This document shows, one piece after another, positions 1 through 23,299 of a stretch of DNA of 64,000 nucleotides (positions are counted from its first letter, which is position 1; every line of letters begins with the position of its first letter). The translations under genes and the position numbers were made by a program. The notes below the pieces were generated by a model. It made no database searches and was not told the origin of the DNA. It saw only the letters and a list, made by a program, of their open reading frames with translations. The DNA is from Sipunculus nudus (lineage: Eukaryota > Annelida > Sipuncula > Golfingiida > Sipunculidae): positions 27,589,401 through 27,653,400 of the forward strand of contig CM049317.1 in the NCBI GenBank assembly GCA_026874595.1. The letters run 5' to 3'.

Positions 1-196
1 TGACAGCTATAATATAATATTATACCTGAACTGATTGAATGGTTGTCACTCTGGACAATTTTACATAAGCAACAATGTAATTATTATAGGACAACATATT
101 AACCATATTAACGTTAAATTCTTAAACATATATGTTGAACCTGATAACACACAAATTTCGCGTTATCATGTAAGTAACCTTAATTGGTCACGTGAC

Positions 197-578: not shown

Positions 579-1974
579 GTAGTTATCAGGATTAATTCAA
601 AGGGAGCCAGTTAGTTCTGATATAGCAAAATTTTGCAGGTAACCAAAAAAAATGCTGAATCAAACTGTACATTTTCATTTACATATATATCTGCTCAGAA
701 AAGATATGAACATTATTTTTCCGAATGACCTGAGGGGTACTGTTGATTGATCGAAATAAAAAGAATCAGAAGCTTTTCCATTGTTTGTGGTAGAGTCGAT
801 GGATATTCTCAAAATCGAACCGCCCTGCCTGTCTATTCGTTTATTACGGTTATCTCGTTATTTTCATCATTAGAAAAGACGATAATCATTTCACATCTTG
901 TTTTGGTGCTACATGTTGCAATTCAAATCAAAGGACATAGCGTAATGCAGAGCTACTGGAGACTCAATCAGCCAGGAGACACTGGGCATTGTGGCATCAT
1001 TTTAAAAGACCCAAACAGAGAGTCATATAGTTGGTCAACTACTTCTTGTGATTCTCGTCAGAATGCAATGTGCATGTCTCCTGAAGGTAACACAACTCAT
1101 ATTATAAATATTAGAACTTTAACTCCTTATGTTTATATTAAACTGACTTCCTATTATCATTTACGCGAGGTGAAAACCAAATAACTTATTGTATCATTAT
1201 TTATTTAGATTTTAGATTTATATAGATTTTTATTGCATTAACAACAAGCAACTAACGCGTGTGAGTAGAATCAACGGTGAAGTCTTTCTCTGATTATTAG
1301 TAAAATGATGTTATAGATATTTATCGGAATCTAAGTTCGAACTGTATGTCCATATGTTCCTCTTACAGAGGCAGTGACCACTGCGCCACCAATAATCACA
1401 AGTAAGAGGGTTGATACCCAGTCGGTTAGATCAACCGATATCCTGACTGCTATTCCTCAAGACGTTAATAATCCACACAAAGGTAAGGACCAACAGTTGA
1501 GTAAATTGAATAGGCGCAGTCGATTTTTAAATTCTTTATTATTGTTTGATCATATAACAGTTTTACTGTGAAAACATTAATAGAAGAAGCTTGATGTGCT
1601 AACATCTTGTTTATAACCTGACGGTACCTTCCTAGTAATCTCACTTTGATGACATTTATGTTTTCATTCACTACATCTGGAGTGCACTATTATGGCCGTC
1701 TCTTTCGTATCCACGTGAAGGCGAGAGCTTTAAAGAAAACATGTATACTAGCAAATTATAAAGGCTGGTTTCACCGGATGTTCTTTCATATTTTGTTATA
1801 GGGAGCGACACGTCTTCTGCTGCTGTAGTTGTTCCAATTGTTCTTTTGATAATTGGCATTGTGGTTGCCATAATCGTGTTTGCTGTGTGGCGTAGAAGGA
1901 AAGAAAAAAGATGCTCCGAAGAGGTATCTTTTGCCGTAATAATTTATTTTATTGTGTGTGATAGCACTTGAACC

Positions 1975-2048
<74 letters not shown>

Positions 2049-2877
2049 TAACACAAAATGAAGCGAATCAAGTATTTTCAGACATTTTACTGCTACATAG
2101 TTTCGTGCAACATGTTGTTGCACTCATCAGGTAAGGCTGTCTGACTGAAATGGACTAGATCATACATGTATATGTGTTACAGAGATATCGGTCCCTGAAT
2201 GTATATATATTGCTGGCCTGTTGTGTCAGGTGTAACCAAGACTGTTTATTGTAAATGTGCGCCCTGGGGCAAAGATACAAGCATCAGATAAAGTTGGTCG
2301 GGATACGGGAGTACTGGGGTCAAAGGTCGTTGTATGAGGGTAGCTGGTAAAAGGCTGTACTGAGATCAGTTAGTGACAATGCTTAAAGAAGACTATATGT
2401 CTATAAACACGGGACTCTCAAAGTGTTTTCTTGTGGCTGTTATTAAAGAAAGAAGGAAAGAAAAAATATAAAGAGGTCCTATAAACTATGTAATGAAATT
2501 CCTAAAAAAGAATTTGTTCGCCTGCCTACTGAGAGTGGCCAAATTTGAGTTGCAAATAATATAGTATTTTTTCCCATAAGCAGAGGTTACATCTGTTGGT
2601 AGTGCTGTCATAAGCCTTTGCCTGTTTCAGTATTTTCCATGTAATACTATAGTCTACACCTTTGTCTTTCATTTGCCATATATATTTGCTTATTTCTGTG
2701 TTAAATTTCTTAGATTTGTTCATGAAGGATGATTTGTGGTTTGCATAGCGTGACTTGAATGAGTTCTGTGTTAATCCTTTGTAAGTTTGTTTCGGCTCTT
2801 CATTTTGTAGTATTATAGAGCTCCGGGGAAATGCCATAGAACACTCTAGTAGTTGTTTATTGCAGAAAACCTGTAGA

Positions 2878-2931
<54 letters not shown>

Positions 2932-5900
2932 GATATGAATGCAAGAGCAATATTATATTTATTTCAACACATAAGCTCACAAGCTTGATAAACTAGGTGG
3001 TGCAAGGAATTGTTATTTACATTAGAAAAACTGTATTCAAATATGTTATTAATACATTAATTTGAAATCTATATTTTAAGCCTGCAGATGAAATAATGCT
3101 TCGAGAAGAAATGATACTGTTATCAGAGAACCAAGACGACAAGGTTAATATATAATGTCAATATATTTGGCTATTTATTATGTTATAGTTCAATATAAAT
3201 CTTGAGTGCTTCAGTCCTCTCGTAATATGTTAAATAAGTTACAAGGAATATAGTTATACAACACTGAAGTAACTAGTGATGCTTTAATAGTATTACAGTA
3301 TGTACCCGAGGTAAATCGTTTATAAAAAATGACATTTTACAACTTGATCTTCGTGTAACAAATCCCTAGCAAGTACCTCATTTAAATTTGGTTCATATTC
3401 GTTATAACATTAAGTCCGATCAAGGAGATAATGAAATATATTTTTTGTAAGACTGAAAATGAAATAAGTGCAGAAGAAATTGTCAATTTATTTTGCTATA
3501 TATTCTGTTATAGTTCAACAAATCTTCAGCGCTTAATTGCTCTCGTAATGTGTTAATTAAGTACCAAGGAATATAGTTAAAAATCACTCGAAATAACAGG
3601 TCATGTTAATTTTGATAGTATTACCGTGCATACCCAATGCTAATCATTCAGTAATAATGAAATTTTTACAAGTTGTTGTTCATGTAGCAACTCACTAGCA
3701 AGTAACTCAAGTAACCTTGATTCTTATTCGTTATAATATTCAGTCCAAACAAGGAGATAAAGAAAAGACGATAACGAACAACAATATATGCAATGAGAAG
3801 AAGGTGAGTTTGCTTCTTTTTTCCCATTCTCTGGAACGTCTTTCATACTATACATCATATCAGTAGGTCCATGGTGTGCATGTATGTTTCTTTGTAAAAT
3901 CATTTTATCATAGAAGACTGTCTCTGCTTGAAATATTCTTACTCCAAAATCAAATGTCGATTTGCCGACGTCCAGTTGCGTTTATCGTAATTTTGTTTGT
4001 AATACTTTTGATTATTGGCGTGCTTGGCCTGCATAATACTATAACGTCAGTACAATGGTATTTTATCGTAAGAGATAGAAAGACGCTCCCCAGAAAAGGT
4101 TTATTTGGTCAGATGAGTGCAAAGAGACAGATTCACTGCAATTCCTAAATTAATATAACATTCTGAAATAGAATCTCAGTCATTAGAAGGTCGTAGCTTA
4201 TGTTCCGACGAATCAATCCGTCAAACAATAGTAATAAATATTTAGCATTCCTTGGTCATCTGTATCTCTCAGACTTCCTTATTTGTGATAAAGCATCTTG
4301 TCCGAATGGACATCTGAGGCTTTTGTATTATCATGTTTTATTTTTATTGAGATTCATGAATTCCGTTAGCCCTAGATCCACGTTCCTGCAAACGTCTAAA
4401 ACTATTTTATCTGTTTATCGATTATACTGGTGTATTGAATAAATATTTATACGTATTTCACTTTGGCCCATGTCCATTTTCCCTCCATCATGGCCATATA
4501 TACTGGATGTCCCAGTTAACATGATGATGTGTTGAAAAATTCTATCAAACCTGAAACAAGGACACTCTGACCTCATTGCACTGAAATGTGGATCAACTTT
4601 TCCCTCTGAAGGCAATTTACAGTTATTTACCTTGTGAGAATTGTCTCTTTAACGGTAACATTTCTACTGCATTGTGTATGATGTAATAAATTTAGACCCT
4701 CACAACACATCACCCTATCGCCATGGAGGAATAACAGTAGTTGTTTGCTGAGTGTATTTTGTGGGATGGCTGAAAAGATTCTGAACAGTCAGACAATTTA
4801 AATACAAAGCTGTTGCATAAATAATTCGGTTGAAAAGGTACGGTTTGATGTAGGGGGAGATGGGGAACTGTCGGTTTTGCGGAATTTCGTGAACTAAAGT
4901 TTGTCATCACACATTGTCACAGAAAGATGTGCCTGTTACAGATATACGGTCACTAACCCTAACCCTTGAAAGACAGCAATCATTGTGCTTGTTACAGATG
5001 TATGGGTACTTACCCTAACCCTAGAAAGACAGCAGGTCATCACACTTTATCAATGTAAGGCAAGATTCAAATGGGAGAAAACGACAGTTCCCCACCAAAA
5101 TGGTCTTTTGTTTCACAGATTTGTTTGATAAGCTGAGCGATTAACTGTTTTTTTAAATACGCTCACTTTGGAGAGTTTGTTTCACTTATCGTGGTATCAT
5201 TAACCTGAAAATCGGCCCCAAGAACTGGGATGATTTATGTCTATTTTACAACACATTTACAGTTATTTCGTTAAAAGCAAAGATTCAAAGACTCTTAATG
5301 AATTCTTTTCATAGTCTTAGTTAACTATTCGGTACTAAATAAGTCCAAAAATAATCAAATACCCAATCAATATATCCAATTATTTTGCAGGAAGTAGGAG
5401 ACGTAGTCGAATTAAGTTCTACCAATAGTTCAAATGTTATACTGGAGGATGGTCGTTTCCATTTTACAAAGGATGGGGGATATTATGATGTGCCATATTC
5501 GGATGCAGTTATTTCATTCCCTAGAGATGCAATCGATGGTTTGAAGATGTGTTGTGGAACAATAGAAATCATAGCCGACATGGCCTTCGGATTTGGTAAA
5601 GAAACAAAGGTGATAACACCTCTTGTCATGTTTAATTTACACGAAGAACAGACCTTACTCAAACATGTGATGATTTCTCTTCCTCATGCAATACAAAAAT
5701 CGATGGACAATGCATTAAACCACATTAAGACCTACGAACGGTCAGAAGATGGCAAATGGGCTCTTGTTCCACAAAACTCTGAGACAGGAGAAATCTATTT
5801 CACTATTGAGGGAGGAAGAGTCTTGTTGTACACTAAACGCTCGACAAAGTTCCTCTGCACATGTGATGTCAGCATGTTGGGACCTACAAACTTATCCGCA

Positions 5901-6909
5901 GTTGTGATGGTAAAGTATGATGGGGATACGGATGGCACTGAAGAGCTCATGTTTTACGTATATATCTTGGATGCATTATATGACAGGAAGGAATGCATTA
6001 AAGTGAGTTTAACAGTTTTATGGGTTTTTATCATACCTTATATGTATAATGAGACATTTTTATAACACTTTTGGTTATACATTATTCCTAATATACCATG
6101 GTAAAATCCCAATGTAATAGTAATTTTAACAAGATATGTTGATTAACAGAAAAAGCTCGGGTTTGCTTCATATAGCTTTTTATTCCAGATGTTGCCAGAT
6201 GAAGTGATGGATAAATATGAGCATATTTCACTCCTCTCTTCGGCTTTACCACACGAAAGTCAGTATGGTAAATTCGATATAAAGGTGGAGTTACGGGTAA
6301 ACCAAGCATGGCAATTCGTTGAGTTGTCCGAAGAAAAAGAACAGCACTTTCAGGTAAAACTATGGGTTAAATGAAATCAGTCTAATACTAGTAATTAATC
6401 ATTTTTCTTCTCGAAGACTGAACCTTTTCCTCTTTGAAAATGCTGTTTTGTAGCTGATTTCTATTTTAAATGTCGTTCTATTCTTTATAGCGGAAGAAAT
6501 TTACCAGTATTTTGCCATCGAAGGACAGTCCTATAGGACAAGAAGCAGCAATGTTTATCATTCGAAGAGAGCTAGATAAACCTCGAACAGATAACTTCAG
6601 ATATTCAATCTTATTAACAGTGCATTGCAATGAGATTGACACTGGACAAATATCAAATATCATTGGGGAACATGAAGGTCGTCTCGATTTGAAGAGGGTG
6701 AGATTCACCATTATTGTTATTTTATTTAATATCTGCGCGTTACATTTAGAATAATTCAACGTGTATATCCATGCAACATCTTTGGTAATAATATAAACGA
6801 CCAACATACTCATAAAGCATTTGGAGTTCAATATTGGTTCATTCTTAAGACCCTGATATTAATACTTGTTTCTCCATTCCAGATGAACCAACGAGATCCT
6901 GATGAATGA
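197..6909 (+). CDS. C-type lectin / transmembrane / ZU5-UPA receptor-like gene (10 exons)
   Basis: Predicted exons: 197-578, 934-1086, 1369-1482, 1802-1923, 3081-3143, 3744-3803, 5391-6002, 6189-6353, 6491-6697, 6883-6909. Junctions after exons 1-3 are phase 1 and after exons 4-9 phase 0; every GT/AG join keeps frame to a TGA, giving about 634 aa. The Met at 197 starts a hydrophobic stretch (DVIIWFIVATPVF) that could be a signal peptide, but a further 5' exon is possible. Order: C-type lectin domain (about residues 45-178), Thr/Ser-rich stalk (179-216), transmembrane helix (223-246) followed by Arg/Lys residues, two short cytoplasmic exons, ZU5 (299-502), UPA-like region (503-626). Read as a type I surface receptor with a cytoplasmic ZU5 module; ligand and pathway are unknown. 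No death domain is seen. The first exon boundary and the weak acceptor at 933 are the least certain points. Confidence 0.72.
934..1086 (+). CDS. Exon 2: C-terminal half of C-type lectin domain
   Basis: Contains W-x-x-x-Q-P-G-D, then His-Cys-Gly, then W-S-T-T-S-C and a final A-M-C, matching the second half of a C-type lectin fold with its conserved cysteines. The sugar/calcium positions are atypical: QPG stands where family members carry EPN or QPD, and WST where WND is usual, so classical calcium-dependent sugar binding is doubtful. The acceptor after AATCAAAG has a weak pyrimidine tract but is the phase-compatible choice; the AG at 950 is out of phase. Confidence 0.68.
1369..1482 (+). CDS. 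Exon 3: Thr/Ser-rich extracellular stalk
   Basis: Acceptor CTCTTACAG and donor AAAG/GTAAGG, phase 1 on both sides. It encodes about 38 residues rich in Thr, Ser and Pro with no cysteine, as expected of a stalk between a lectin head and the membrane. Confidence 0.65.
1802..1923 (+). CDS. Exon 4: transmembrane helix and stop-transfer sequence
   Basis: Acceptor TTTTGTTATAG and donor GAAGAG/GTATCT. It encodes a 24-residue hydrophobic run (AAVVVPIVLLIIGIVVAIIV and four more residues to Trp246), then RRRKEKR. The basic flank predicts type I topology with the ZU5 part in the cytosol. The exon enters in phase 1 and leaves in phase 0, marking the boundary between the extracellular and intracellular parts of the gene. 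Confidence 0.75.
1979..2050. repeat. (TA)n microsatellite
   Basis: An uninterrupted TA tract that ends TACATATATA. It lies at the 3' end of the Penelope-like insertion and probably marks its target. Confidence 0.95.
2078..2144 (-). ncRNA. Hammerhead ribozyme motif, Penelope-associated, probably inactive
   Basis: On the minus strand the core CTGATGAG is followed by a perfect stem II (TGCAACA / TGTTGCA) and then CGAAAC. Stem I can form from TTAC with GTAA, then an internal loop, then TCAGACA with TGTCTGA. The base expected to be U just before the cleavage position reads as C (AGCA rather than AGTA), so cleavage is probably lost. It lies downstream of the polymerase fragment, as expected for the element's terminal region. 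Confidence 0.65.
2526..2875 (-). pseudogene. Penelope-like polymerase C-terminus (GIY-YIG endonuclease) fragment
   Basis: About 115 codons remain. GIY-YIG-type landmarks are a Tyr/Gly strand (TYKGLTQ), a candidate catalytic Arg in FKSRYANH, and a zinc-finger-like CNLC. The reverse transcriptase core is absent, so the copy is 5'-truncated. A frameshift near 2540 ends it early. Confidence 0.65.
3081..3143 (+). CDS. Exon 5: short cytoplasmic exon
   Basis: A phase-0 exon of 21 codons (starts PADEIMLREE) with acceptor ATATTTTAAG and donor AAG/GTTAAT. It is acidic and has no domain. It lies inside a tandem duplication of about 365 bp (3075-3810), and its second copy near 3455 looks degenerate. Confidence 0.5.
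3744..3803 (+). CDS. Exon 6: short cytoplasmic exon
   Basis: A phase-0 exon of 20 codons (starts SKQGDKEKTI) with acceptor ATAATATTCAG and a strong donor AAG/GTGAGT. A diverged duplicate near 3412-3450 keeps the acceptor region (TCCGATCAAGGAGATAA) but runs into a stop and has lost the donor. Confidence 0.5.
3970..4060 (+). pseudogene. Possible second transmembrane exon copy
   Basis: An open stretch encodes RRPVAFIVILFVILLIIGVL, a membrane-helix-like run that resembles the gene's transmembrane exon at 1802-1923 in both sequence and hydrophobicity. No phase-compatible acceptor/donor pair was found. It may be a decayed duplicate or an unused alternative exon. Confidence 0.25.
4922..5042. repeat. 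Tandem duplication of about 60 bp with CCCTAACCCT
   Basis: Two copies of a unit with TGTTACAGAT, a CCCTAACCCT core and GAAAGACAGCA. The short CCCTAA runs resemble telomere repeats but are only two units long, so no telomeric origin is claimed. The stretch lies in intron 6 of the lectin/ZU5 gene. Confidence 0.75.
5391..6002 (+). CDS. Exon 7: ZU5 domain
   Basis: Acceptor AATTATTTTGCAG and donor AA/GTGAGT; 204 codons in one exon, phase 0. ZU5 hallmarks are a Gly-Gly turn (KDGGYYDVPYSD), a strand with F-P-R-D-A-I, and a later VMISLPHA strand. The end has the VLLYTKRSTKFLCTCD motif, which is close to the VIIYTKHFTQFVCACG motif of the reverse-strand gene at 22442-23074. In netrin receptors, ankyrins and PIDD, ZU5 is a cytoplasmic beta-sandwich that packs on a UPA module. 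Confidence 0.8.
6189..6697 (+). CDS. Exons 8-9: UPA-like region
   Basis: Exons 6189-6353 (55 codons) and 6491-6697 (69 codons), both phase 0 with clean splice sites (TATTCCAG, CAG/GTAAAA, TCTTTATAG, AGG/GTGAGA). The paralogue on the other strand has exons of 57 and 63 codons in the same order after its ZU5 exon, with shared features such as an aromatic pair in AWQFVEL / GWHLRGS. UPA follows ZU5 in known ZU5 proteins. The call rests on position and exon layout more than on strong motif matches. Confidence 0.55.
6883..6909 (+). CDS. Exon 10: terminal exon with stop codon
   Basis: Acceptor TTTCTCCATTCCAG, then nine codons (MNQRDPDE, TGA). It is very short but in phase with the preceding exon. 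A poly(A) signal (AATAAA) occurs downstream near 7009 and again near 7278. Confidence 0.5.
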   Translation: MNQRDPDE

Positions 6910-8177
6910 TTACACACACACACACATAAATATATGCTATTTCTTTAAAGTTCATTCAACAAGCAACATTCCGTGATTTCACATTAATTTTAATTGGCTC
7001 CTTAAAAAATAAATGTATTATTAGCGATTACCTTCATACAGCATTTTTTTAATTCATTACAAAGTTCGTATTTTAAATGTTTGTTTTATTCACAATTCAT
7101 AGGCACACATCTCATGTACGTATATTCTGCACTGTTCGTTATAATGGTTTCTAATTTTGTGTAGATAGACATTGACAAATGTATGATCACACATATATCG
7201 TAACACCAAGTTACAAACAAAACTGACTGGCTGACTTTAACTTACGTGTGCCCATTATATATATTATGATGACCCGCAATAAATGTGTTTATATAATGGA
7301 ATTGTTTTCTAACTTCGCAAACCATTCTTAGATTGATGTGCACACAGGAATATTAATTATTCTGTTCATATATTATTTAAGCGACACTATCACAGAAAAC
7401 CGTTAGGACATGTCGGTCTTGTCCTAGAATGTGCTCAGCCTTCAAAGATGATATCTTGAGGAGTAGATTGATATATCAATTCTCTAGAATGTACTTGAGT
7501 ATACTGGTGATTGTTTCCAGACCTCGTTATAACTGTGTATTTTCCATTTCGGGGGAAGCAGTATTGAGTCTTGTTTTTAATGACGGTAGCGACAGAGCAG
7601 AAAGGAGATTCCTCTTCGTACTCTACAAAAAATGAAAATAATATTTATGACAATTAAAATTGCACATAATTACTTTTAATATGTAATTGGTATTTTATTG
7701 TGTTAAAGAAGTACTAATTCAAAATGCAAAATAATAATAAGTAGTATTTTTAGACAAAGGTTCGCTGAAATGCACAAAATGTTAGTCCGAAAGTGTAGAT
7801 GGGGCAAAATTATGTCGATTCGGAAAAAGGCAGACTTTGGCATTTATTACATCACGCCAATGTCAAATGCCTCCAGATACATGAGCATCCCCTTGAGAGC
7901 ACCACAACAAAATACTAAAACCTATAGTGTTTGATAACAGCGTGAAAGGGAAAGACTTTATTTATAAAATAAAATCAAAATGTTACAATGATCTATCTAG
8001 AAAGTAGTACCACATTAAATTCTGGAAATTCTGAGACGAATTAATTTTCCTCTCCCCCCGACATCCCGTCTTATCATATCTCTCAAACCATAACCGTAAG
8101 ATTCTAATCCACGTAAATGAGGTGACAGTTTTCATCACTGGTACAGATTCTTTTCGAGAAACACTGTAATGTATATA

Positions 8178-10373: not shown

Positions 10374-11046
10374 CTCTGGTGGTTGCAACTCTAGTTCTAG
10401 ACAGGCTTCGAGGCCATCCTTCAACGGTTTGAGAGCAGATTTTGCTTCCCCGAGACGACCGTTTGGACCAATTCTTTTGCCATACTTAACTTGAAATCGT
10501 ATCTCTCCATGACTTAATTCCCTTTCCTTCACCTTATAAAAAAGAAAATGATGCATCCGTTTCAATATGGTATATTGCAAAATGCGCTTTAACTACACCT
10601 ACATGATTTATTTCTAGTTTTATCATTTGAAGAATATAATTTGTTTTCCCGGATTCTACCGAAAAAACATTAATTAGTATACACAATTGAAACAAACTTA
10701 TATATGCGTATTGGCGTATAATGATGTGAAGAATATCAAATAAACAAGTGCTTCATAATATAAATAATTTTAATATAAATTTCGGTATAATTTCATCTTA
10801 AATAATTTAGTTGATTTCGATACCGAATATGCCAAGGTCTTCGTCAGTAGCTCGGGGTTACTGGTTCCTTTCTTAACATGGGCCTTGAACTCATATTCCT
10901 TTCCCGCTTGGATAAAGAACTTGACATACGAATCTTGAGGTAACTTGAGACCCTCTACTTTCAATGATTCTACCTTAATCTTTAAAAAAAATGTGATTGG
11001 ATGGTGAGTAATGAATATCTACGTGATGTTTAAGCTGTATATTTCA

Positions 11047-11097
<51 letters not shown>

Positions 11098-11782
11098 CAT
11101 TTACATATAGGTCCTGGTCTAATATCTTAAACAGTAAGATGGGTTAGACCCAATATCCGGTCATGTTCTATCGATGAATCCATGCAAGAAAAAAATAATG
11201 CTCCTGTATGATCAATAATTATTATATATATATAATTATATATATATATTTTATAAATTAAATCAATTATCAATATCAGTATAAGAACAAGTACGGACGG
11301 GCCTGTGGCAAGTTCAATCCTAATTACCTGCTTTTCGGAATCGCTATAATTTTGCTGAACATTCTAAATATAATTCTAAACTAATAACCAATATCGGTTA
11401 TTTGGTCTTATTCATCTCGTCATTTCAAAACTTGATTGTGAGACTTGGAATCGATCTGACCCATTTAAAAATCTGTCATTAGGTCTGAACCATATAAAGA
11501 TGGGCAGCCCAATATGTAATGTAGGTTAATTGATTTATTATAAAATGTTAATTTATAATTTCTAGATAATATGATACTAAATGCATAACACAACTAAGAT
11601 ATATCATGCCTGATCAAATGACATATTATAAACATATTTGTATATAATATCATGAAACATAACTAATGACGTTACTTTCGTTGATATACCTGTGCAGTGG
11701 ATTTATCGAACCGCAGACACACAAGCAAGGTTCCATTTCCACTTGCAACATGACCAGCATCTTTTTTATCATATGTGTGGAC
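10374..11782 (-). CDS. C2-like domain encoded by three phase-0 exons
   Basis: Exons 11782-11690 (31 codons), 10979-10824 (52) and 10532-10374 (53). Joined in order they follow the C2 fold: G-N-G-T-L-L-V-C-L-R-F-D, then IKVESLKVEGLKL, D-S-Y-V-K-F-F, KAHVKKGTSNPEL, then a G-E-I-R-F-Q-V strand, GPNGRLGEA and a final LELELQPPE. Of the usual calcium-binding aspartates only part are evident, so calcium binding is uncertain. The donor after the middle exon (TCG/GTATCG) is weaker than the rest. Downstream exons were not found. Confidence 0.65.
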
Positions 11783-12554
11783 CTGTAGGAAGAATATGTA
11801 TAAGTTCTAATATTTGTAAGAACTAAAATTTGAAATGAGGAAACTGTTTTATGGTTTCTTGGATGTTACGAGACAAGAAATTGCTCATTTTACAAAATAG
11901 AGCCAGGTATATTCACTCCATGACTTGTTATGAGGTTAGAGGCAAAACAAACGTATCACGACAAACAAAGATTATTAACAAGACAACAAACAGCGTTTAA
12001 TAATATAACAAGGAATTTGATTTTCCTAATGGTCTCATATACATATTATCCAGTAGAGAACTCTGTAAATAAAACATTGTTTTTTTAGATTGATGTCATA
12101 ATTTTGGCTTAATTACATACGGTGTAATGAGGAACCTCTTATATACAACATTTTCCTGTTGTGTACTGGTATAGAATGGTTTGCAAAATTATATTTTTCT
12201 ATTGATTAAATTAATTTTACTATTCCTTTTGCTTAATTAATTTTCTTAATTAAATCGTGATCGATTATTTCAAACTGGCTGCATCGATGAACCGTCAAAG
12301 CTTCTTAAAATTTCATGTTCTGCCAATTTCATTCTTTTGAGTTATATGATTATAATATATCCCTGTATGCGAATATAGGAAAAGTTCACCTTTTCAGGTA
12401 ACGTCGGAGGAGAGGGAGCAACTGGACGAGTCCTCTTCGATGGAGACCTTAAATTTTCTTCGGACATCTTTTTATCTTTCTGGCTGTTTATCTAAATATC
12501 AAATGAATACAGATAACGTTTATTCCTATGCAGATACGATGAATAAATAAAACG

Positions 12555-12598
<44 letters not shown>

Positions 12599-13170
12599 CG
12601 TAGGTCAAGATAAAGAGTGACGCCTTTTAGATAGATAGATATGATATATGATGGAACGATAATGTAGAGAGTCCATGATGCCAGAAACAGTGTAATTATA
12701 TTTTGATTGGATATTAAGTAATATTATAACCATGATTCCCTGTTTGAGCGTGGTTCAGTGCGGAACGCATCGCTTAACGTAGGTCGACGGCCTATCATGG
12801 AACATCTAACGAGCCTGATAGTCGGGGCGGGAGAGAAAACTCCTGAGCAGGACAGAGCATTGGGAAATCTTACCTCCCCCTTCCTCACAGATGGAGTAGG
12901 GTTGGGTATCCGGCTCGTGGCACACCTTCGGACCGATTTGGGCATTCCACAGGCGGCTCGGGTAAGGACTACTATTGGAAATGGCGGGCTGTACCACGAA
13001 TGCGAGCAGTTTGGACCAAGCGACCCGGTCAACGTGACGTCATAATGTGGATGACGTGGACCTTCGAGCGGTTTCGCGGAATTCCCGAGTAAAGCGATGC
13101 GTACTGCACTGAACCACGCCCACACAGGGCATAATATTACTTAATATATAATCACATTATAAATACACTG

Positions 13171-13236
<66 letters not shown>

Positions 13237-13424
13237 CCAGTTTTAACAATAAAGAGAAAGAATTGCTGCACATTCTTCAATCTACTTAAATTATACGAAC
13301 CAATGTCTGTACTCACCGGTGTGGGTGGAACAAGTTTTGCTTGTGAAGACGTTGCTTCTGCGGTTCTTCTTTTTCCTTCATATTTACTCATATATTCTTC
13401 ATCCTATAACAAAAACACATTTGA

Positions 13425-13476
<52 letters not shown>

Positions 13477-16400
13477 GCAATATATTTCTTTCCATGGGAC
13501 ATCTCTCTCTTCGGAAATGTATTATTGATAGTACACTTATACAAAGTGTGTTCATACATGTTTCTTTTCATTTAACGTATTTAGAGTTCAACTTACCGAC
13601 TTGTGTATCCAATATATTGTTATAAATTTCTCAAAACCAGTTTTCAATTGAATTTCTGAACGAGAACACTGAGACCCACATGTTCATATTTTATAAGCAA
13701 AACATCGGTCTTTTAGTTATCATAAAAGCCTTACAGAGGTAAATATTCTGACTCACAGGAAGATTATAAATTCTTTGATGTTCAATCACGGTAAAAATTT
13801 CCTGATCACCCTCTTACAATAACAAACCCGCTGTATAAAAAAAAGTCAGTTGTTTGGATTCAAAGAGGCGTATGCCAGGGATCTCCTGTGCTCTGTCAGT
13901 TTCCCAAGGTGAACGAATTTTTCTATTTTATTGTTTGGCAACTTTATTCTAGTGCCATACCCTCCTGTGATTAGTTTTCGGCATATTTGGATCCGGACAA
14001 AATTCTGGAATTATGGGAGATTCTGTGTGGTGAATTCTATTAAATGAACCCTGAAGGCAAAATTGATGTTGTCTTTACTTGTTCATGCCTGCTATATACA
14101 TGTCCTATCACCGAACGCATCTGCATTGTTTGCATATGCATAAACATGTATAATACTGATGGTGGTAAAGAAAATAAATATGATAAATTTTGCCAATTTA
14201 TGACAGTACACCTCCATGACGTAATATTACTCTACCTTTATATATGCAATAAAATATGTAAAAATGTTAAATATATGCTAGCACCACAGAAAATAAATGT
14301 TAGTTTTTTTTAGGTGGCAAGAGATGAAGTGTCCTTCTGGAAGAATATTTAATCAATCTTCAGGTGATTAATGCATCATTTTTTCGTTTATGTGGTACAA
14401 ATATAGATCCTGTATAGGGTGATTTAGCATCATTCTTAGCATTCATCTCTTGCTGGGATATTTGCATTTTGTTATTCTCTTGGTGGAAAAAATGTTTGAA
14501 GGTACTGTTTCTTCATTAATAACCATAGTTTACATTACCAGGTGAATTATTTTCTTCCATTCTCAAGACTTGGCCATTCTGACTCTTAAGGTAGCATCTC
14601 TTTTTTTTCGAATGAAAACTCCAGTGCAAACAATCGCCTGTTTCTATCCGGTTTCTTTTTCCTTTTGTATCGTTGTTGTATAATTTATATTTTTGCATCG
14701 GTTTGGGAGTCTCTTATATGGCCTTTTAGGTGTGTTCTTTCTTTAAACTGTGTTACTAAGTTAAAATCTTTTCCAAATAAATGACCCCTGTACAGACAGA
14801 GCCTTGACCATCTTTTTTAGGGTTGGGCCGTTCTACTTCAGCACCCTTCCGGTTTGCATGACCGGCAGAATTACTTGAACATTTATATTGAAACACTGCA
14901 ATCAAATATCCCGTTTTACTAGTGTTTATTGTTGTTCAACATAATGCCATTATTCTAGAGATACATCAAATGTTTCTTGAGTATTTTTATCAATGATATT
15001 TCCATCCTTTGTGAAGTTTTTATTCATATACTCATTTCATTATTCCTTAGGTAATGTATCCGTCATTGAAATTCTTTCAAAGCAGGCGTATTTTATATGT
15101 ATATGTTCGACCATCAGATAATTAACATTTGTTCATTCTGCATCGTCCCCTACCAGATTAAGATGACACCTTTGAATACAAGGCAAAACCCCCGTCTCAA
15201 AAAATTGCAGGGGATGCTTAACAGATGCCTTGTATTCTCTACCATAAACAACCACATTATTTGCAATGGCTTTTAGTCCACCACTTTTCTCCAAGATAGT
15301 ATCCATTTTTGTTTGATTGTATACTAGCTCAGAGAGTTATAATGGAACTAGCTCTCTTCACAGTGTGTGATTCGATAGTACTCAGGTTTTCCGAAAGAAA
15401 TTTGTGATTCTCTTCTGCCGCAGGACTCCTTTGTGGGTCCCTTTCAATAATTTCTTTAGTCTGAATATATCTAGGCAGATTCTAGGAGACGCATCTAATG
15501 TGACAGCATACGCTTAATACGAATACGACTCTGTCGGATAGGTGATAGATGGAATTCCTCTGAAGTATCAGTCACTTTACTAAAATAATCAGGCTATGGT
15601 CTAGCATCTTCTTTGGGCGCAATATGGCCATGCCTGGAAAATCTCAGACTACCAACTCTATAATTTCTTTCTTTAGTCGTAAATATTCCTCATGCAGTTT
15701 TCTATCGTTTGAATCATTTGTTTAAGTAACACATTTAAACTGGAAGGATGATATCGCAAATATACCCCCCCCCCCCGGCCTCTCCCCATCCGACGGTCGG
15801 TCAAATTACATATCAGGCGTAACTCTGTTGCACAGACACGGAGAAAGGAATGGTAAAAAAAAAAGAATAAACGACAAAAATTTGATACTCTGCACACGGG
15901 GTTACCGCAGAAAGTTTACGTACAAATAATGGTATGGTAATGAATCTATCAATCCTATAAACATTCAAGTTTAATATTAATTTAGTATTAAGACAAACAC
16001 AATGAAAGGAATCATGATATATTCTCCAATATACATTTTTCATAAAAATGTTCTCTGAACGCAAATCATTTTGTCAAGTATTATCGTATAAACAAAATTC
16101 TTTTATGTAAAAGGAGATTAATTTCCCCTTTATTTGGCACCTGGGTTCTTGAGACCTTAAACATGAATTTCATATATTTTTTTGTGCACAGAGAACTGTA
16201 AACATAAATGTTTGAACTGCCGCACTGTTGAACTAAGCGACGTGTCAACATTTTTGTACATGTGCGGATTTTTACCATTTTATTCTTCTCGTCTTCCTCT
16301 GCGTCTTTTGTCTCTTTTGTTTTATTTTCGATGCTCTGATTCCGACGCATAATGGTTGTGGGTCTAACGTTCCTTTTCTGTAGTATTTCCGGAAAAGAAA

Positions 16401-19400
16401 ATTCCAGATACTGAGATATTAAGGGAAATGGGGGATATAAGGTTAACCTATTCCATGTGCGTTTGTTGTGTAATGGGAGGATTTCATCCAGATCCAAGAC
16501 TTTGTCCTGGTTTGTTTGGCTGGTACACATGTGACATCATGGACTGAATTTCATCAACAACTCAGATCTAGTGATGCATGTTGTTTTTATTCTCTGCTTA
16601 CAATTTTAGATTGACAGGGGCAGAAATACTGTGCTTTTACTGAAATCTAGAATTTTTAGTCACATATTATTTTATCTTATTTTATGTGACGTGTCGATTG
16701 TGCTCAAAGATGTGCCAATAGTTTTTAAACAAATCACACAACCTCATGTTTTTAGTAAAAAAAAATAGATAGAAAAAATGTTTCTGCTCCAAGAATTGGA
16801 CTTATTTTATGTAAAATCTATATTGATTCTTTTTTCATAGGTGATTATGTTATATGGTAATGTAATGGGATTTGGAATACGTTTGCTTGACCATAATTGC
16901 AACAGCCACGTTCATTACTGAAGTAAGACAAATATAACTGTGGCTTCTATCCTATAGTTTGAGTCTGGTTATGGGTCTTTCAAGGACCTTAAAAGTGCAA
17001 TTAAAAAATCTATACAATTTTCATATGATTTTCTTATTAACATTTGTAGTTTTTTTTACAGTTAAGAATATGTTTAATACAAGCCTTATCTGTCGGTTCT
17101 GAGGGGTTCTCAAAAGAAAGTTGTGTAGGTTTAATCGCTTCAGACGTATGTTCCTTGTTTTGAGCATGGACCTGAATACAGATACACATCGTATTAAAAA
17201 TTAGATTTTGAAAAAAGAACATCAAATAAGGAACAATCAATAGTACGATATTTTGGTAACAGCCATATTGCATATCCACAACACGCAAATATAGAAGTTA
17301 GAGATAATGGAAAATCCGCCAAATTATATTTATCTTAGGGATTTATATTCTTATATAAATTCAATATTTTAGACAAACAATATGAATGGAAAGATGATAT
17401 ACTTTTCAATTTACATTTATAATAAAAATATTCTCTGTGCTCTGTTCTCTGCTACGAGACGTCTGCAAATCTGTATGTCCAGTTATTTTGTATTAGAGAT
17501 GTCCATGTATGCAAAAAGAAACGAAGTTCACCTCTTTTGTAAATATTGAAGGACTTTATGAAACTAAACCCCTCCTTTCTGTCGTTGGCTCTATATTTTC
17601 TACAGACACCTGTGTATCTTTCTGGTTGCTTATCTAAGTAACAGTTGAATACAGCTTACGGTTATATTTATTTCATGCTGTTATAATGCTTTAAGTATCA
17701 TGATGTTGTAATAATAAAATACACAAGAATTCAGTATTGTATTTCCTCCCAGCATTTTACTAATAAATGTACTGACCGTCTTAGATGCAACTGTTTCTGC
17801 AGAAAAATGAGCTCCTAGATTTCTCTTCATTTCTTCCTCATTACTTGTGGTTCTTGAACCCTTAAACAGGAATATTGATTATTGTTTAAACTAAGTGATT
17901 TTTAATGCTAATATTTATTCTATATTATGATATGTGAACAAGATGAATGCAAATATTTACTATCGTCCACCAGGCTGATGATAGCTATGTTTGATAAATA
18001 TAATTGTGACACCGTCCTATCATTTAAATATCAGTATGCGTCTTTTAGGTACCTTTCGATTGTATAATCTTAGACACTTATCATGCGATACTCCTTAAAG
18101 TATTTTGTAAAGGTTTGAGGATAGAGTATGTTCAATACAAGCCTTATCTGTTGATTCTTTTACTTTTTCACAATGAAGTTGTGTAGGTTCAATTATTTTA
18201 GAAGAATCTTCTTTCTTTTCGTTCTGGTACTTAAAAAAAGAGAAAGACTTACTGGAAGAAATGTTAGATTTGAAACATCTAACTTTGAACAAACATAATG
18301 AAAATTTAAATTTTCAAACTTAGAGGTGCAGAGAGTGATACATTAAGTGATTTTTAATGCTGGTATTTATTCTATATCATGATCTGTGAACATGATGAAT
18401 GCGAATGTATACTACTGTCCACCAGGCTGTTGAAATAAGAAACTTAAAAAAAATGGAATGTAAATGCATGGATTTTTACCATGTTATTATTCTCCTCTTT
18501 CTTCATATGTTGTGTTTCTTTTGGTTTGCTTTCGGTGCTATTATTCGGATGTTTCATGGCTGCGGGTCCTACATCCCCTTCCTTAGCGGTTTTCAGGACA
18601 GATCAGTCAATACAATGAACCATGGAAGGAAGAGAGGTCGATAACATTGTGACATTTACGTTCCTTAGATATGTTTGATAAACATTATTGAGACATCGTC
18701 CTATCATTTAAATATCAGTATGCGTCTTCTAAGTACCTTTCGATTGTATAATCTTACACACTTATCATGCGATTCTCCTTAAGGTATTTGGCAAAGTTTT
18801 TAGGATAGAATGTGTTCAATACAAGCCTTATCTGTCGATTCTTTTATTTTTTCAACAAGAAGTTGTGAAGGATCAATCCTTTCAGAAGAATCTTCTTTCT
18901 TTTCGTTCTGGTACTAAAAAAAGAGAACGACTTACTGGAAGAAATGTTAGATTTTGAACACCTAACTTTGAACAAGCAAAATGAAAATTTAAGTTTTCAA
19001 ACTTAGAGGTGCCGAAGTAATACATTACGATTTGATTTTAAGGTTCGTCATGACCAAGTTGTTTTTTTAATCATTTGAAAAAAAAGCCTAAAGCCCTTTC
19101 TGTCATTGTTTTGTGTGGTCTATATATGAAACCAGGTTAAATGTTTAAATCTTTTAGAAACCCTTTGGATGTGGTTTTCATAATCGATTTAATAATTCCT
19201 TAACGCCGTTTAAATTTTATAAAATTGATCTACATTATTATATAGTTAGAAAAACGTACATTAGTACTCACCTGCTTTAATAAGCAGCAACAACATTGTT
19301 TTTACCCTTTATCACTCATTTCTTTGAAAGTTTTGAAGTATTGATTTTCGTTTATGCAAGCAATCACGACATCAGATAATGTACCATGAAATTACCTCTG

Positions 19401-22400
19401 GCAAACTGCTCTTGGCTTAAATACCAATCTGGTCAATAAACTCACCTGGTATTCTGCTTGATACAGATTAATTTATTGCTCTCCCATTTAGCTTTCAAGC
19501 ACACACAAATTTACTCACTGGAAAATGTTGGGCCTGAATTTCTTCGGGAGGTATATACAGGAGACCTCCTTCCTTTGTGCCAGGATCGGCCGGCGTCTCC
19601 TGTAGGGAAAATATGAATAGCAACAGTTGGCAAATATTGATTGATCTATTAAAAATATGTTCTTTTACGCTACGAACAATCAACTGTAGTTATTCCATTG
19701 ATGTTTTTAAAACATGCTTAAGTTTCAAGATCCTCACGTTTTGGCCGGGTTCTGTCATTCCAGTTAAGTGTGTCTCTGCTTGATGCCTATAATGAACATC
19801 TTCGGTTCGGTTTTCTTTTGATTTTATTTCCTGGTCCTGTAATGCGTAAGAGTATAAATATAATTTAGCGTGATGTAATGTGTTGAAATATTGTATAAAT
19901 TTTGTTTTCCACTTATTATAGAGTCATAACGATGAGGCTCCTAGATAAGAAAAAAACAACACAACCATTTTATTCACGAATAAAAGTAAAATTGCAAAAA
20001 CATGCTTTGATTACCTCGACAAACGCTAAATGTATAAACACAATTTCACTGATGCGAAGAAGCACGGTGTCTATCAATTATAAAAAAAATGGTATTCTTC
20101 TGGACTCGATTCTATTTACCATACCTTTTAAAACTTTGGTCGCAAAGGAAATAGTATTTTAATTGTACTGCATTCGGGCAGTACAGTTCAATGTTTTTTT
20201 ACGCTGAGAAGTAACTGTTGATTCAAATGCTATGTTTCGTTATTACATATTCCAGCAAACTGAAAAGTTCATATTGTAATACAAAACTCATATATACGAA
20301 ATCATATTTTCAATTTATATTTACATATTTAAGCAATTTTATGATCAGAAACGTCATAGTTTCCATTTATAATGGCCTCACCAGATGATCATCTTCCTTA
20401 TTTGCATTTGCTTTTTTCGGGACACGATTTTCTACTAAAGCTGTTTCATTTGTATCGCTTTCCTGTAAAACGGATGAAGCTTTATTTTGTTATCTCAAAT
20501 GAGTTTTATTCCTTAAAACACACATATACTCATTTTATTTTCAATAAACAGACTTGATGTCATAAAATTAATAACCCTCACAATAAACAAATCGCCCTTT
20601 ACAATTTATGTTTAGGCGCAGGTAACATTATTTCTATAACGGAAATATAACAACTCGTAGATTGCTGCATTTGAATTGTATTTACTTTTTATGAACTTGT
20701 AATGCATGAATGGGATTTCTGATGAAGAAAAGAAATCTTGAATATGTTATTCATCATATTGCTGTTAAGGTTAATGGTATTGCTCAATATCTCATGTCTG
20801 GTTATGATATTATAAGAAACAGTAATTGTAATATTACTTTTTTCTTTGGCTGTGTGTGCTCTAGTTTCTTAGATCTTGACGACCGTTTGCTGCTCGTATC
20901 CTTTCCCTGAAATATATTTATTTATTTATTCATTCAATGTGTCTTTTTTTTAATTTTAGAATGGCTACTGACAGCGTGTCCTAATATAGACATATGAATA
21001 TAAAGTCATTCCTTTTATCGGTCTAGATATATTAAACAAAATGTTTTGTTTTGTAACAAAAATCTTTTTGTAAAAGAAACTATATTTAAAGCCTCTCTGG
21101 ACTGTAATATAGTCCCTTTAAATAATAACGTTTACTGGGGCCCATGCTGCATTCCCCGAAAGAGCTTGTTATTGTCGTTATTTATTTAAGTTTGGTTCAT
21201 GTGAAGACTGGACGTAATATGATATATTGTTTTTTAAGAGTGGAACTTATAAAGCTTGAATTTGATTGCCGCCGTGCAGCACCTGTTAAAGGTATTTATT
21301 GCATTGATCCTATGTGTTAAATGTACAACACCATATTAACTAAATAATACTTGAATATGGTGATTCTATGTTCCATAGATTAGAACACTGTTGTTAGACA
21401 AAACTGATGCCCAAAAAATACGCACCTTGAAGATTTTGACAGATCGTCTTGACAGTGCATTGTCTACATCGATATCTTCTCCCTCTTGTCGCCTGACGAG
21501 AAGTTCCCTCAACTATAAACAGAGATTATCAACCGTAAAAGCACATTTTAATGTGATACATGTTATGCAAGTCTTTAATCTGAGAGTCACTTAAGGTAAT
21601 AGAAAAATGTCACTGGTATTAGGAGCGTAGTGATTTACTGTAGTGCAGATTATATGATAACCTTGTAAACTAACTCCAAGAACATACCTGTTTAAGCACA
21701 ATTTTCTTTGTCCAAGTATGGACCTGCTCCTGCTCCGTCCCACTCTTCACAAAGAATCGCAGCTGAGCTAAAACCTTTTCTTTCTTGGTCTGAGAGTTTG
21801 ATTGGAAGAAAAAGGTAGCCCTCATGTCATTCGGATCCTGTGAATGGCAGCGGACAATGTCACTGAACAGTGGACTCTGGAAAAAAAGTGGAATACTATG
21901 ACTAAATTTCTCGTCTGTCGTTTTCTTGTTTACTTTTTTACTATGATCCTGCTGTTTAAGCTATTACTAATGGGTATGCTCATATACCTTTGTAACAGAG
22001 GTTTCACTTTCATTGGATCCACGAAGATGCCAGCCCGAATCTGTTATGACGCACTTCACTTCCAGTCGAGCATCATTCTCAACATATTTCCAAGATAGCT
22101 CTCTCGTGATATCATGGGCAACTCCACATGGAATCGCCTTGTGCCTTTTTCGAAGTGACTAAATTAATAAAGCGATAAGGTCATTTTACCTACATGTTGA
22201 TCAGAAACTTCATATTATATAATGTAAGGTAAAATATCTCATAAAACTGTCATCGGTGTTTACATCCTACGATTTAACCCCGGCCATCACTGACAGATAT
22301 ACAACATATTTGGCGTAACGATTTGGACAAATAGAAATATAAAATAACATATTGAAATAATGAAAAGGGTATTGTCACATGATATAACTTATGTAAGCAT

Positions 22401-23299
22401 GCTTGACTTTAAGGAATTGGAGGAATTATGTAAAAGCTGACCTCAAAATGGTCTTCAGGGCGCACAGATTGGTGTACTATAAAAGCATCAAGCTGCATCT
22501 CTTGCTCGCTTTCATCTTCATACAAAGAGGCAAACATGTAGGCGGAGAGCTTGATGTTCTTCTCACCACATGCACATACAAACTGAGTAAAATGTTTGGT
22601 ATAAATGATGACACTGTCCTTCTTTAAAATATAGTATATATCACTGGTTGGCTGATTCTGCTGTATGTTGGTCCAGGGGTCATTGTTAGTGTTTCTATAA
22701 AAAGCTGCAGCAGTATGTCTATCAGATTTCTTTGGGAACACTATTTGTACAAAATCATTAAAGTTCCCTGTTGAGGTAAATTCCGCGACAGGTGTGATCC
22801 CCTGTGATGCGATTGAAGCACCAGTTGCAATACATATTATGTTCATAGAAATTTCAAAATATCTTCCCTGTGGTACTGCATTCCTTGGAATTGTAAGCGT
22901 CACGCCATATTTGCCTCTCAATATGACACCTCTGTCTCCCACACGGAAAGTTCGTAGACATTTCTTTCCGTCCATGGAAGATTGATGTCCAAACATAGAA
23001 CATAAGCGTCCAAAGGGTACAGAAATGTCTTTGCTCTTGTTCTGGGGAACAGTCATTGTTCTTGCATAGTTTAACTACAATCAAGATTCACCAGCAATTT
23101 TTTTTTATCTCAACAAATCAACACTTAAAGACAAATAAGAAAGTTTCCCGGTCGCCATGCTTAAGTAACCATGGTATCATTTATTCCCCCATTGTCACTA
23201 TTTAATACTTACGTAGTATCTTAGAACGGTGAGCAGAAGAAGAAACACCATTGGCCAACTCCGCAAGCATGCATACATATATTGTATTACCGATTCCAT
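10374..23299 (-). CDS. ZU5-UPA gene with duplicated tail exons, possibly continuing into a C2 domain
   Basis: Minus-strand exons in transcript order: 23299-23213, 23074-22442, 22158-21988, 21876-21688, 20906-20838, 20462-20382, 19836-19738, 19599-19519, then either terminal exon A (18913-18800) or further exons 18581-18480, 17860-17777, 16377-16276, 13403-13317, 12491-12390, 11782-11690, 10979-10824, 10532-10374, with alternative terminal exons at 18229-18095 and 17171-17037. Every exon is phase 0 at both ends, so nearly any combination keeps frame. Ending at terminal exon A gives about 507 aa: short hydrophobic N-terminus, ZU5, UPA-like, disordered tail. Whether the C2 exons belong to the same transcript is not shown by the sequence; a second gene starting within 13-18 kb is the alternative. 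Confidence 0.6.
12390..12491 (-). CDS. Exon upstream of the C2 module (34 codons, Pro-rich)
   Basis: Acceptor ATATTTAG and donor AAAG/GTGAAC, phase 0. Reads INSQKDKKMSEENLRSPSKR, then TRPVAPSPPTLPEK, a basic and proline-rich linker. A decayed copy lies at 17548-17633, tying the C2 end to the tail-exon array. Confidence 0.55.
12684..13174. mobile_element. GC-rich MITE-like element with terminal inverted repeats of about 90 bp
   Basis: 12684-12776 and 13090-13174 are inverted copies: the ends read GAAACAGTG and CACTGTTTC, followed by TTAAGTAATATTAT, CCCTGT, and GCGTGGTTCAGTGC, with one 8-base indel between arms. The core between them is about 310 bp and much richer in G+C than anything around it. 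No transposase is encoded; open frames on both strands in the core share no family features. Its right end abuts a TA tract at 13175. No clear target-site duplication was seen. Confidence 0.8.
13175..13234. repeat. (TA)n microsatellite
   Basis: An uninterrupted TA tract directly adjoining the right end of the MITE-like element. Confidence 0.95.
13317..13403 (-). CDS. Tail exon F2 (29 codons)
   Basis: Acceptor AGGATGAAG preceded by TTGTTATAG, donor CCG/GTGAGT, phase 0. Reads DEEYMSKYEGKRRTAEATSS and onward, ending in Pro-rich VPPTP. Possible relative of exon F1. Confidence 0.5.
13862..13905 (+). pseudogene. Possible LINE reverse transcriptase scrap
   Basis: A short frame reads RGVCQGSPVL, close to the G-V-x-Q-G-x-P-L motif of LINE-type reverse transcriptases. 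There is too little context to call a family. Confidence 0.25.
14044..15153. other. No gene recognised
   Basis: AT-rich intronic or intergenic sequence of the minus-strand array. It probably includes more decayed retroelement DNA next to the gypsy-like fragment, but no readable domain was found. Confidence 0.4.
15154..15300 (-). pseudogene. Ty3/gypsy-like reverse transcriptase remnant
   Basis: 49 open codons on the minus strand contain LEKSGGLKAIANNVVVYG, which aligns with the catalytic strand of Ty3/gypsy-type polymerases, where I-A-D-D is normal. Both catalytic aspartates are replaced by asparagine here, and stops flank the segment, so this is a dead fragment within the intron region of the tail-exon array. 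Confidence 0.5.
16276..16377 (-). CDS. Tail exon E2 (34 codons)
   Basis: Acceptor AATACTACAG and donor ATG/GTAAAA, phase 0. Reads KRNVRPTTIMRRNQSIENKT and onward, Lys/Glu-rich. Paralogue of exon E1 at 18480-18581. Confidence 0.5.
17037..17171 (-). CDS. Terminal exon C
   Basis: 44 codons and TAA, acceptor CTGTATTCAG, phase 0. Starts VHAQNKEHTSEAIKPTQL and carries PTDKACIKHIL. Third and most diverged member of the terminal-exon set. Confidence 0.6.
   Translation of the reverse strand, partial: VHAQNKEHTSEAIKPTQLSFENPSEPTDKACIKHILNCKKNYKC
17548..17633 (-). pseudogene. Decayed duplicate of the exon at 12390-12491
   Basis: Acceptor GTTACTTAG followed by ISNQKDTQVSVENIEP, parallel to INSQKDKKMSEEN at 12491. 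The copy reaches an in-frame TAA near 17559, while the old donor (GAG/GTGAAC) is still visible near 17530. It is either a broken cassette or an additional short terminal exon. Confidence 0.45.
17777..17860 (-). CDS. Tail exon F1 (28 codons)
   Basis: Acceptor CTGTTTAAG and donor ACG/GTCAGT, phase 0. Reads GSRTTSNEEEMKRNLGAHFS and onward. Possibly related to the 29-codon exon at 13317-13403. Confidence 0.5.
18095..18229 (-). CDS. Terminal exon B
   Basis: 44 codons and TAA, acceptor TTTTTTTAAG, phase 0. Starts YQNEKKEDSSKIIEPTQL and carries STDKACIEHTLS. Close duplicate of terminal exon A, with a longer end. Confidence 0.6.
   Translation of the reverse strand, partial: YQNEKKEDSSKIIEPTQLHCEKVKESTDKACIEHTLSSNLYKIL
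18480..18581 (-). CDS. Tail exon E1 (34 codons)
   Basis: Phase-0 exon with acceptor CCGCTAAG (weak) and donor ATG/GTAAAA. Reads EGDVGPAAMKHPNNSTESKP and onward. Exactly the same length (102 bp) as, and clearly homologous to, 16276-16377, including the donor and flanking GTAAAAATCC. Confidence 0.5.
18800..18913 (-). CDS. Terminal exon A
   Basis: 37 codons and TAA after acceptor TTTTTTTAG, phase 0. Starts YQNEKKEDSSERI and ends with STDKACIEHILS. The STDKACIEH core and a preceding P-x-Q-L are shared with terminal exons B and C, so these ends are under protein-level constraint rather than being chance stops. Confidence 0.65.
   Translation of the reverse strand, partial: YQNEKKEDSSERIDPSQLLVEKIKESTDKACIEHILS
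19519..19599 (-). CDS. Exon 8: Pro/Gly-containing tail exon
   Basis: 27 codons (ETPADPGTKEGGLLYIPPEE and seven more), acceptor TTTCCCTACAG and donor CCA/GTGAGT, phase 0. The LLYIPPEE segment could be a short linear motif; function unknown. Confidence 0.55.
19738..19836 (-). CDS. Exon 7: disordered tail exon
   Basis: 33 codons (starts DQEIKSKENRTEDV), acceptor GCATTACAG and donor AAC/GTGAGG, phase 0. No domain. Confidence 0.5.
20382..20462 (-). CDS. Exon 6: disordered tail exon
   Basis: 27 codons (starts ESDTNETALVENRV), acceptor CGTTTTACAG and donor CTG/GTGAGG, phase 0. Charged and without a recognisable domain. Confidence 0.5.
20838..20906 (-). CDS. Exon 5: Ser/Lys-rich tail exon
   Basis: 23 codons (GKDTSSKRSSRSKKLEHTQP plus KKK), acceptor ATATTTCAG and donor AAA/GTAATA, phase 0. 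The clustered basic residues suggest a nuclear-localisation-like or phospholipid-binding tract; no domain. Confidence 0.5.
21688..21876 (-). CDS. Exon 4: UPA-like, second part
   Basis: 63 codons, acceptor TTTTTTTCCAG and donor CAG/GTATGT, phase 0. Contains ATFFFQSNSQ and VLAQLRFFVKSG, a strand pattern parallel to MFIIRRELDK and YSILLTVHC in the 69-codon exon at 6491-6697. Confidence 0.65.
21988..22158 (-). CDS. Exon 3: UPA-like, first part
   Basis: 57 codons, acceptor TTAATTTAG and donor AAAG/GTATAT, phase 0. Starts SLRKRHKAIP and contains LEVKCVITDSGWHLRGS. It matches the 55-codon exon at 6189-6353 in position, size and phase. Confidence 0.65.
22442..23074 (-). CDS. Exon 2: ZU5 domain
   Basis: 211 codons, phase 0, acceptor ATTGTAG and donor GAG/GTCAGC. 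ZU5 features are a Gly-rich strand (DRGVILRGKYGVTLTIPRNA), a GITPVAEF strand, and the VIIYTKHFTQFVCACG segment that matches the + strand gene's VLLYTKRSTKFLCTCD. Same single-exon ZU5 layout as 5391-6002, so the two genes share ancestry. Confidence 0.82.
23213..23299 (-). CDS. Exon 1: start codon and hydrophobic N-terminus
   Basis: The ATG has a favourable context (A at -3, G at +4). It encodes 29 residues ending in a hydrophobic run (PMVFLLLLTVL), then TAC/GTAAGT, a strong donor in phase 0. The run is short: it could be a signal peptide or a signal anchor. ZU5 domains are cytosolic in known proteins, so an anchor or lost ectodomain is plausible. Confidence 0.6.

Follow-up and report, generated by a model that had tools for sequence, protein, structure and literature searches.

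The window, by which we mean the whole stretch of 64,000 nucleotides of Sipunculus nudus DNA that was analyzed, lies on contig C12 of a genome that was searched as 1.43 Gb in 153 contigs. On its minus strand, to which exon coordinates refer unless stated otherwise, the sequence reads as a gene with a ZU5(-UPA) module, followed by small tail exons and then by exons of a C2 domain. We infer that a first coding exon at 23213..23299, which has a phase-0 donor (gtaagt) and encodes a short hydrophobic segment, either a signal peptide or a signal anchor, belongs to this gene; its presumed topology would make the protein membrane-bound and the tail, hence, cytoplasmic. The ZU5 exon (22442..23074), identified by a profile, runs towards the UPA. 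E2 (21988..22158) and E3 (21688..21876) are called UPA parts 1 and 2 by position, with no Pfam UPA match in either, and have a homologous exon in locus L038 (43% over 49 aa) and a similar exon in L042 (25% over 67 aa, E 0.015), respectively; E4 (21426..21512) is an open phase-0 exon bounded by AG and GT. Beyond the small tail exons, C2a (11690..11782), C2b (10824..10979) and C2c (10374..10532) match PF00168 when joined (E 5.9e-5, 23.7 bits, above the cut-off of 22) and resemble the C2 domains of synaptotagmin-like 4 and rabphilin; a relative of C2c was found downstream of a ZU5 remnant in locus L039. An open frame with a stop at 7435..7620, containing YTVI and YTQV, is a possible last exon, and phase 0 also fits there with the chosen acceptor. 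From the donor of the first exon to C2c, all boundaries of the model are in phase 0, and its exons putatively belong to one mRNA. A comparison with Rfam matched nothing at the gathering threshold.

Taken alone, the ZU5 exon matches PF00791 weakly (E 0.014, below the cut-off). A profile built on ten ZU5-like exons, two of them in the window (22442..23074 and an exon of the plus-strand gene) and eight at other loci, matches ZO-1 (E 2.3e-11) and UNC5B (3g5b, E 1.8e-10), and the ankyrins more weakly (E 0.00033 to 0.54), and the donor of the exon, HFE/gtcagc, is found at the same place as the donors of sister genes. By this profile the protein counts among the ZU5 proteins, and it is probably a ZU5-UPA protein. 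The UNC5 netrin receptors have a ZU5-UPA-death domain layout, and ankyrins combine ZU5-UPA with a long C-terminal region. The likeness to UNC5 covers the ZU5 and the start of the part that follows (the match spans profile positions 34-203 and UNC5B chain positions 7-178 only), but here Pfam finds no death domain in the ZU5-to-E4 chain or the C2 chain, and small exons and a C2 domain are present instead. As to the ectodomain and transmembrane segment of UNC5 receptors, the part of the model that bears on them is the short hydrophobic first exon. In the case of the ankyrins the likeness, weaker than that to UNC5B, is to the ZU5, and no ankyrin repeats were found by Pfam in the same two chains.

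Elsewhere in the window, a convergent gene on the plus strand (1-6400) contains two weak C-type-lectin halves (PF00059, below the cut-off) and, near 1790-1890, a hydrophobic stretch. It also has small tail exons, at which two stretches are alike (3370-3447 and 3699-3863, 59% over 22 aa), and a second ZU5-like exon (5355-6062), which shares 34% with the first across 44 aa and has no Pfam match. Among the matches listed, many translated matches in opposite orientation between about 29-35 kb (plus strand) and 36-43 kb (minus strand) suggest a large inverted repeat. The window also holds an exact 166-bp tandem pair (44639-44974), a 155-bp tandem pair with 92% identity (37964-38277) and a 25-bp minisatellite (61594-62508).

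Nine internal cassettes were modelled in the tail (T1-T6 and T8-T10), and all nine are bounded by AG and GT, have a length divisible by three and are open in phase 0. The array begins with T1 (20838..20906, 69 bp, weak splice sites), T2 (20382..20462, 81 bp, strong splice sites), T3 (19738..19836, 99 bp) and T4 (19519..19599, 81 bp, strong splice sites). These are followed by the stop-bearing exon TermA (18800..18913), T5 (18480..18581, 102 bp, poor acceptor), the stop-bearing exon TermB (18095..18229), T6 (17777..17860, 84 bp), T7 (17532..17633, 102 bp), which is a copy of T10 that kept both splice sites and has an in-frame stop, and the third stop-bearing exon, TermC (17037..17171). Further downstream lie T8 (16276..16377, 102 bp), d6 (16080..16158), T9 (13317..13403, 87 bp, strong splice sites) and T10 (12390..12491, 102 bp). 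The element d6 appears to be a decayed copy of T6, with 2 to 3 gap events inside the exon; it was aligned by eye and by nhmmer with a model partly built from d6. The original prediction had listed at least ten small exons with phase 0 at both ends. This holds for the nine cassettes, but one listed exon, 17548-17633, is 86 bp long and not symmetric; the true homologue of 12390-12491 is the 102-bp T7 (17633-17532), with its stop.

Splice scores, taken from a generic matrix, exceed 6 in four of the nine cassettes (T2, T3, T4, T9) and range from -3.4 to 3.5 in the remaining five (T1, T5, T6, T8, T10). As domain exons also score low (E2 0.1, C2b -2.3, C2c 3.9), a low score is no ground for excluding a cassette. 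The residues K, R, E, D, Q, N, S, T, P or G make up 75% of the nine cassettes and TermA versus 56% of the ZU5 exon. Motifs for poly(A) signals 3' of the Term exons are uninformative, being too common in DNA that is AT-rich here. When the tail cassettes were compared with the genome, all 12 matches at E <=10 among the best 20 candidates scored were the window's own, and with 20 candidates scored distant copies elsewhere could escape.

Phase-0 exons in the tail exceed chance. The tail region has six phase-0 candidates at a splice score >6, two of which were absent from the original prediction; the background holds one in the 68 kb that the two strands of 27-61 kb make up, and one on the opposite strand of the tail. 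Phases 1 and 2 gave two and one candidates in the tail, respectively; in the seven-region count given below, the window alone has 6/1/2 in phases 0/1/2 (binomial p 0.04). Symmetry had been taken as a signature of alternative splicing, but since all introns of the modelled ZU5-to-C2 gene are in phase 0, as are all boundaries read in two sister genes, it is no special sign of regulated splicing.

Several members of the array are clearly related. T5 and T8, singled out for their equal length, are indeed both 102 bp, align without a gap in the exon with 31/102 differences, and share a protein likeness whose score was reached by none of 300 shuffles. The homology claimed for the three terminal exons is also confirmed: in the DNA self-comparison TermA and TermB lie in a region that is 89% identical, introns included (17982-18354 vs 18666-19039, 376 columns), with a continuation of the same copy at 88% (17892-17981 vs 18344-18433), and TermC is 76% identical to TermA and 75% to TermB over 97 columns. 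The stretch that bears T5 lies between both matching parts in copy A and is missing from copy B. The self-comparison further pairs T10 with T7 (80% over 74 bp) and 15974-16057 with 17353-17437 (80%). For T6 and T9, proposed as possible relatives, a weak likeness was recovered (shuffle p 0.006), but as one of 55 pairs tested they were rejected as a firm pair.

These relationships fit a module Term-T5-T6-T7 that was duplicated in tandem, and the units would be, with losses, TermA-T5, TermB-T6-T7, TermC-T8-d6 and T9-T10. The last unit is tentative, since T6/T9 is the least secure of the relationships and the stretch upstream of T9 showed no clear remnant of Term or T5. Judged by their sequence, TermA and TermB are the youngest pair and were duplicated together with their introns. 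A small element in the intron between T9 and T10 is probably mobile, with inverted ends (12684-12778 and 13089-13174) that are 79% alike across 95 columns.

The original prediction saw in such an array the basis of mutually exclusive or combinatorial splicing. Mutually exclusive choice is not suggested for T5/T8 or T7/T10, since the copies are not adjacent: T5 and T8 are kept apart by TermB, T6, T7 and TermC, and T7 and T10 are likewise separated. For TermA and TermB, T5 is the sole exon in between. Mutually exclusive splicing by way of very short introns was rejected, the introns that separate the modelled array exons being at least 138 bp long by their coordinates. Homologous symmetric exons, as in mutually exclusive arrays, are present here (T5/T8) and the Term exons are related but end in a stop; as adjacency of the alternatives was looked for and not found, we do not class the array among them. 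In Dscam1-type arrays the copies are clustered, encode parts of the ectodomain and are used in a mutually exclusive manner. Tandem duplication of exons within one gene is common to those arrays (compare PMC3364881 and PMC4835542) and the present one, but the copies here are few, interleaved, located in the tail and in some cases broken.

The broader version of the claim, that many cytoplasmic tails arise as regulated splicing selects from the duplicated cassettes and the three Term exons, draws on the open, symmetric exons and on the three homologous alternative ends. The separation of the related pairs by other exons, the length of the introns and the uninformative symmetry of an all-phase-0 gene speak against it, as does the divergence of the youngest pair. 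Between TermA and TermB, differences amount to 12/111 in the exon and 24/260 in the intron (Fisher p 0.83-0.85; 10/113 and 23/257 with other gap placement and limits), and pN is 0.107 and pS 0.114. Three further pairs were measured (TermA/C pN 0.295, pS 0.307; TermB/C 0.298, 0.341; T5/T8 0.294, 0.349), and pN/pS across the window pairs ranges from 0.84 to 0.96, but with about 18-23 synonymous sites per pair power is low and neutrality unproved. Within that low power, the divergence of TermA and TermB appears near-neutral. For TermA/C, TermB/C, T5/T8 and T10/T7, the exons differ at 30-38% and flanks of 120 bp at 45-55% (p 0.0023-0.015; with 60-bp flanks, p 0.0044-0.34); the lower exon divergence of these older pairs could reflect some constraint, though flanks this diverged are close to saturation. 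T6 and d6 show no difference between exon and flanks (p 0.29 and 1). Open frames alone are weak proof, because in simulations the chance of staying open was 0.12-0.58 for six pairs (T5/T8 0.40, TermA/B 0.58, TermA/C 0.30 and, in sister genes P1 and P2 described below, P2 copies 1 and 2 0.12, P2 copies 1 and 3 0.19, P1 block B2 0.29).

Neutral-rate substitution and stops in most cassettes in related species had been named in advance as refuting a combinatorial tail. Within the window this is borne out in part: the youngest pair does diverge as fast in the exon as in the intron and has nearly equal pN and pS, and T7 and d6 are broken, but most cassettes are open. The same observations bear on the possibility that the gene, as a whole or at its C2-bearing end, is losing its function and that the duplicated exons are debris. 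The stop in T7, the decay of d6, the poor splice sites of T1 and T5 and a sister locus (P3) that is itself broken would agree with this; we nevertheless consider it very unlikely, as an open frame is kept in ZU5, E2, E3, E4, every C2 exon and all nine modelled cassettes, and the C2 exons, when joined, match a C2 domain.

At least 24 ZU5 matches above the cut-off are present in the genome (40 candidates scored), 18 of the 24 on C12, and the ZU5 chain of the window finds 12 other loci on this contig (in 13 rows of matches). The stretch downstream of the ZU5 was taken for seven of the 12 (P1-P7; ten stretches of 10 kb). In P1 and P2, small phase-0 exons come after ZU5-E2-E3-like ones, and in these two sister genes all boundaries read are in phase 0. 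P6 has the same layout and two similar tail exons at a distance of 2.9 kb, and P4, P5 and P7 have few small tail-exon candidates. A count over seven regions with 84,951 bases in total (the tail of the window and the six sister loci other than P3) gave 62/12/21 symmetric candidates in phases 0/1/2 on the sense strand and 11/6/13 on the antisense strand (Fisher p 0.01 for phase 0 vs the rest, sense vs antisense); the list is mechanical, and its sense set includes some domain exons (the P4-P7 stretches contain the ZU5) or repeats. P7 is without a phase-0 excess (3/2/1 sense vs 4/2/0 antisense). That a ZU5 gene carries symmetric tail exons in duplicate is confirmed, with similar tails in several sister genes. 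In L040 and L041 (P1), the tail exons have, by eye, repeated LIDL-like endings and the tyrosine sites YENV and YDEV, and repeat arrays lie between the exons of P1. L044 (P4) carries on its reverse strand an 88% duplication of ~470 bp (3357-3825 and 6616-7065), downstream of the ZU5 and with no predicted tail exon.

The broken locus P3, in which a later part of the ZU5 was the only one found and a C2 exon has a stop, bears on whether the array belongs to one gene or two, the latter being a ZU5 gene whose end is a Term exon and an independent C2 gene that begins within or after the array. Three stop-bearing exons do precede the C2, and the C2 exons of the window, compared with 20 kb each of P1 and P2, gave a best E of 0.64. 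Two genes are nevertheless highly improbable, given that phase 0 continues into the C2 and that in P3 a distance of ~5.3 kb separates E2 from a relative of C2c, with order and strand as in the window, the C2c relative scoring 57 against at most 34 in six shuffles. C2a, C2b and the tail exons were not found in P3, where apart from C2c no tail exon was clearly above shuffles. Candidates for T2 (40 vs 32 shuffled; wrong strand) and for T5 (38 vs 33) and the last exon (43 vs 40), both of which cross a stop, were rejected.

Duplicated tail exons are also present in P1, P2 and P6. In P1, block A has 1/129 exon vs 48/546 intron differences (p 0.0005) and block B2 29/165 vs 97/252 (p 4e-6); copies 1 and 2 of P2 have 60/363 vs 230/1063 (p 0.04). 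P1 block B1 and P2 copies 1 and 3 show no difference between exon and intron (p 1), and the pN values of P2 (0.178 and 0.165) are no lower than its pS values (0.140 and 0.147). All eight second copies in sister genes have a length divisible by three and are free of stops, the first copies having been chosen as open. P1 blocks A and B2 and the two P2 comparisons (1 and 2; 1 and 3) together have no gap events in 840 exon sites vs 30 in 2144 intron sites, and block B1 has one exon gap of 3 bp. Since some duplicated exons of P1 are strongly conserved, drift is not the rule of the family; constraint acts on some tails, and in others, including the youngest pair of the window, it is absent or undetected.

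The intact second copies and the distribution of gaps are the points from the family that favor a combinatorial tail, and human tissue-specific exons often encode disordered, motif-bearing segments (PMC3437557). Like those exons, the cassettes here are short polar segments that could be included or omitted, with their alternative splicing a prediction; as a difference from those exons, no further cassette copies were found in the genome among the best 20 candidates scored. Combinatorial splicing of the tail is not shown by these data and, with the near-neutral TermA/TermB, the decay of two copies (T7, d6) and a chance of staying open that is not rare, we regard it as unlikely. A family-wide form, in which ZU5-UPA receptor-like genes have intracellular tails of interchangeable phase-0 motif cassettes that duplicate in frame and are mixed by skipping or alternative ends, as an intracellular counterpart of the Dscam type, we regard as decidedly unlikely. 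Our literature search, which covered few subscription journals, recognized among the papers listed none that describes a ZU5 family with such tails.

The array is real, somewhat unusual and wider than the original prediction could see. The explanation that we favor, and consider likely though by no means certain, is a member of a ZU5 (probably ZU5-UPA) family with a disordered tail of phase-0 exons that are born and die, with no special choosing mechanism needed. Because every modelled intron is in phase 0, copies of tail exons could be gained or lost, and enter or leave the transcript, with the frame intact, and the tail would lengthen or shorten through the birth and death of symmetric exons. 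The module Term-T5-T6-T7 would have gone through about three rounds of copying, with one further and more recent duplication of the Term unit, and some copies may drift or have decayed. Splicing to a Term exon would shorten the protein and remove the C2, and exon skipping or alternative ends would be possible. The tail would be flexible, possibly carrying short motifs, and would connect the ZU5-UPA to a synaptotagmin-type C2.

If the tails were truly mixed, a single gene could change which downstream partners its constant ZU5 core engages, and the family, whose copies differ in age, would serve as a set of natural replicates. Even without mixing, this is a clear case of an all-phase-0 gene whose disordered tail grows through exon birth and death, in a family where conserved (P1) and drifting (window) tail copies are both present.
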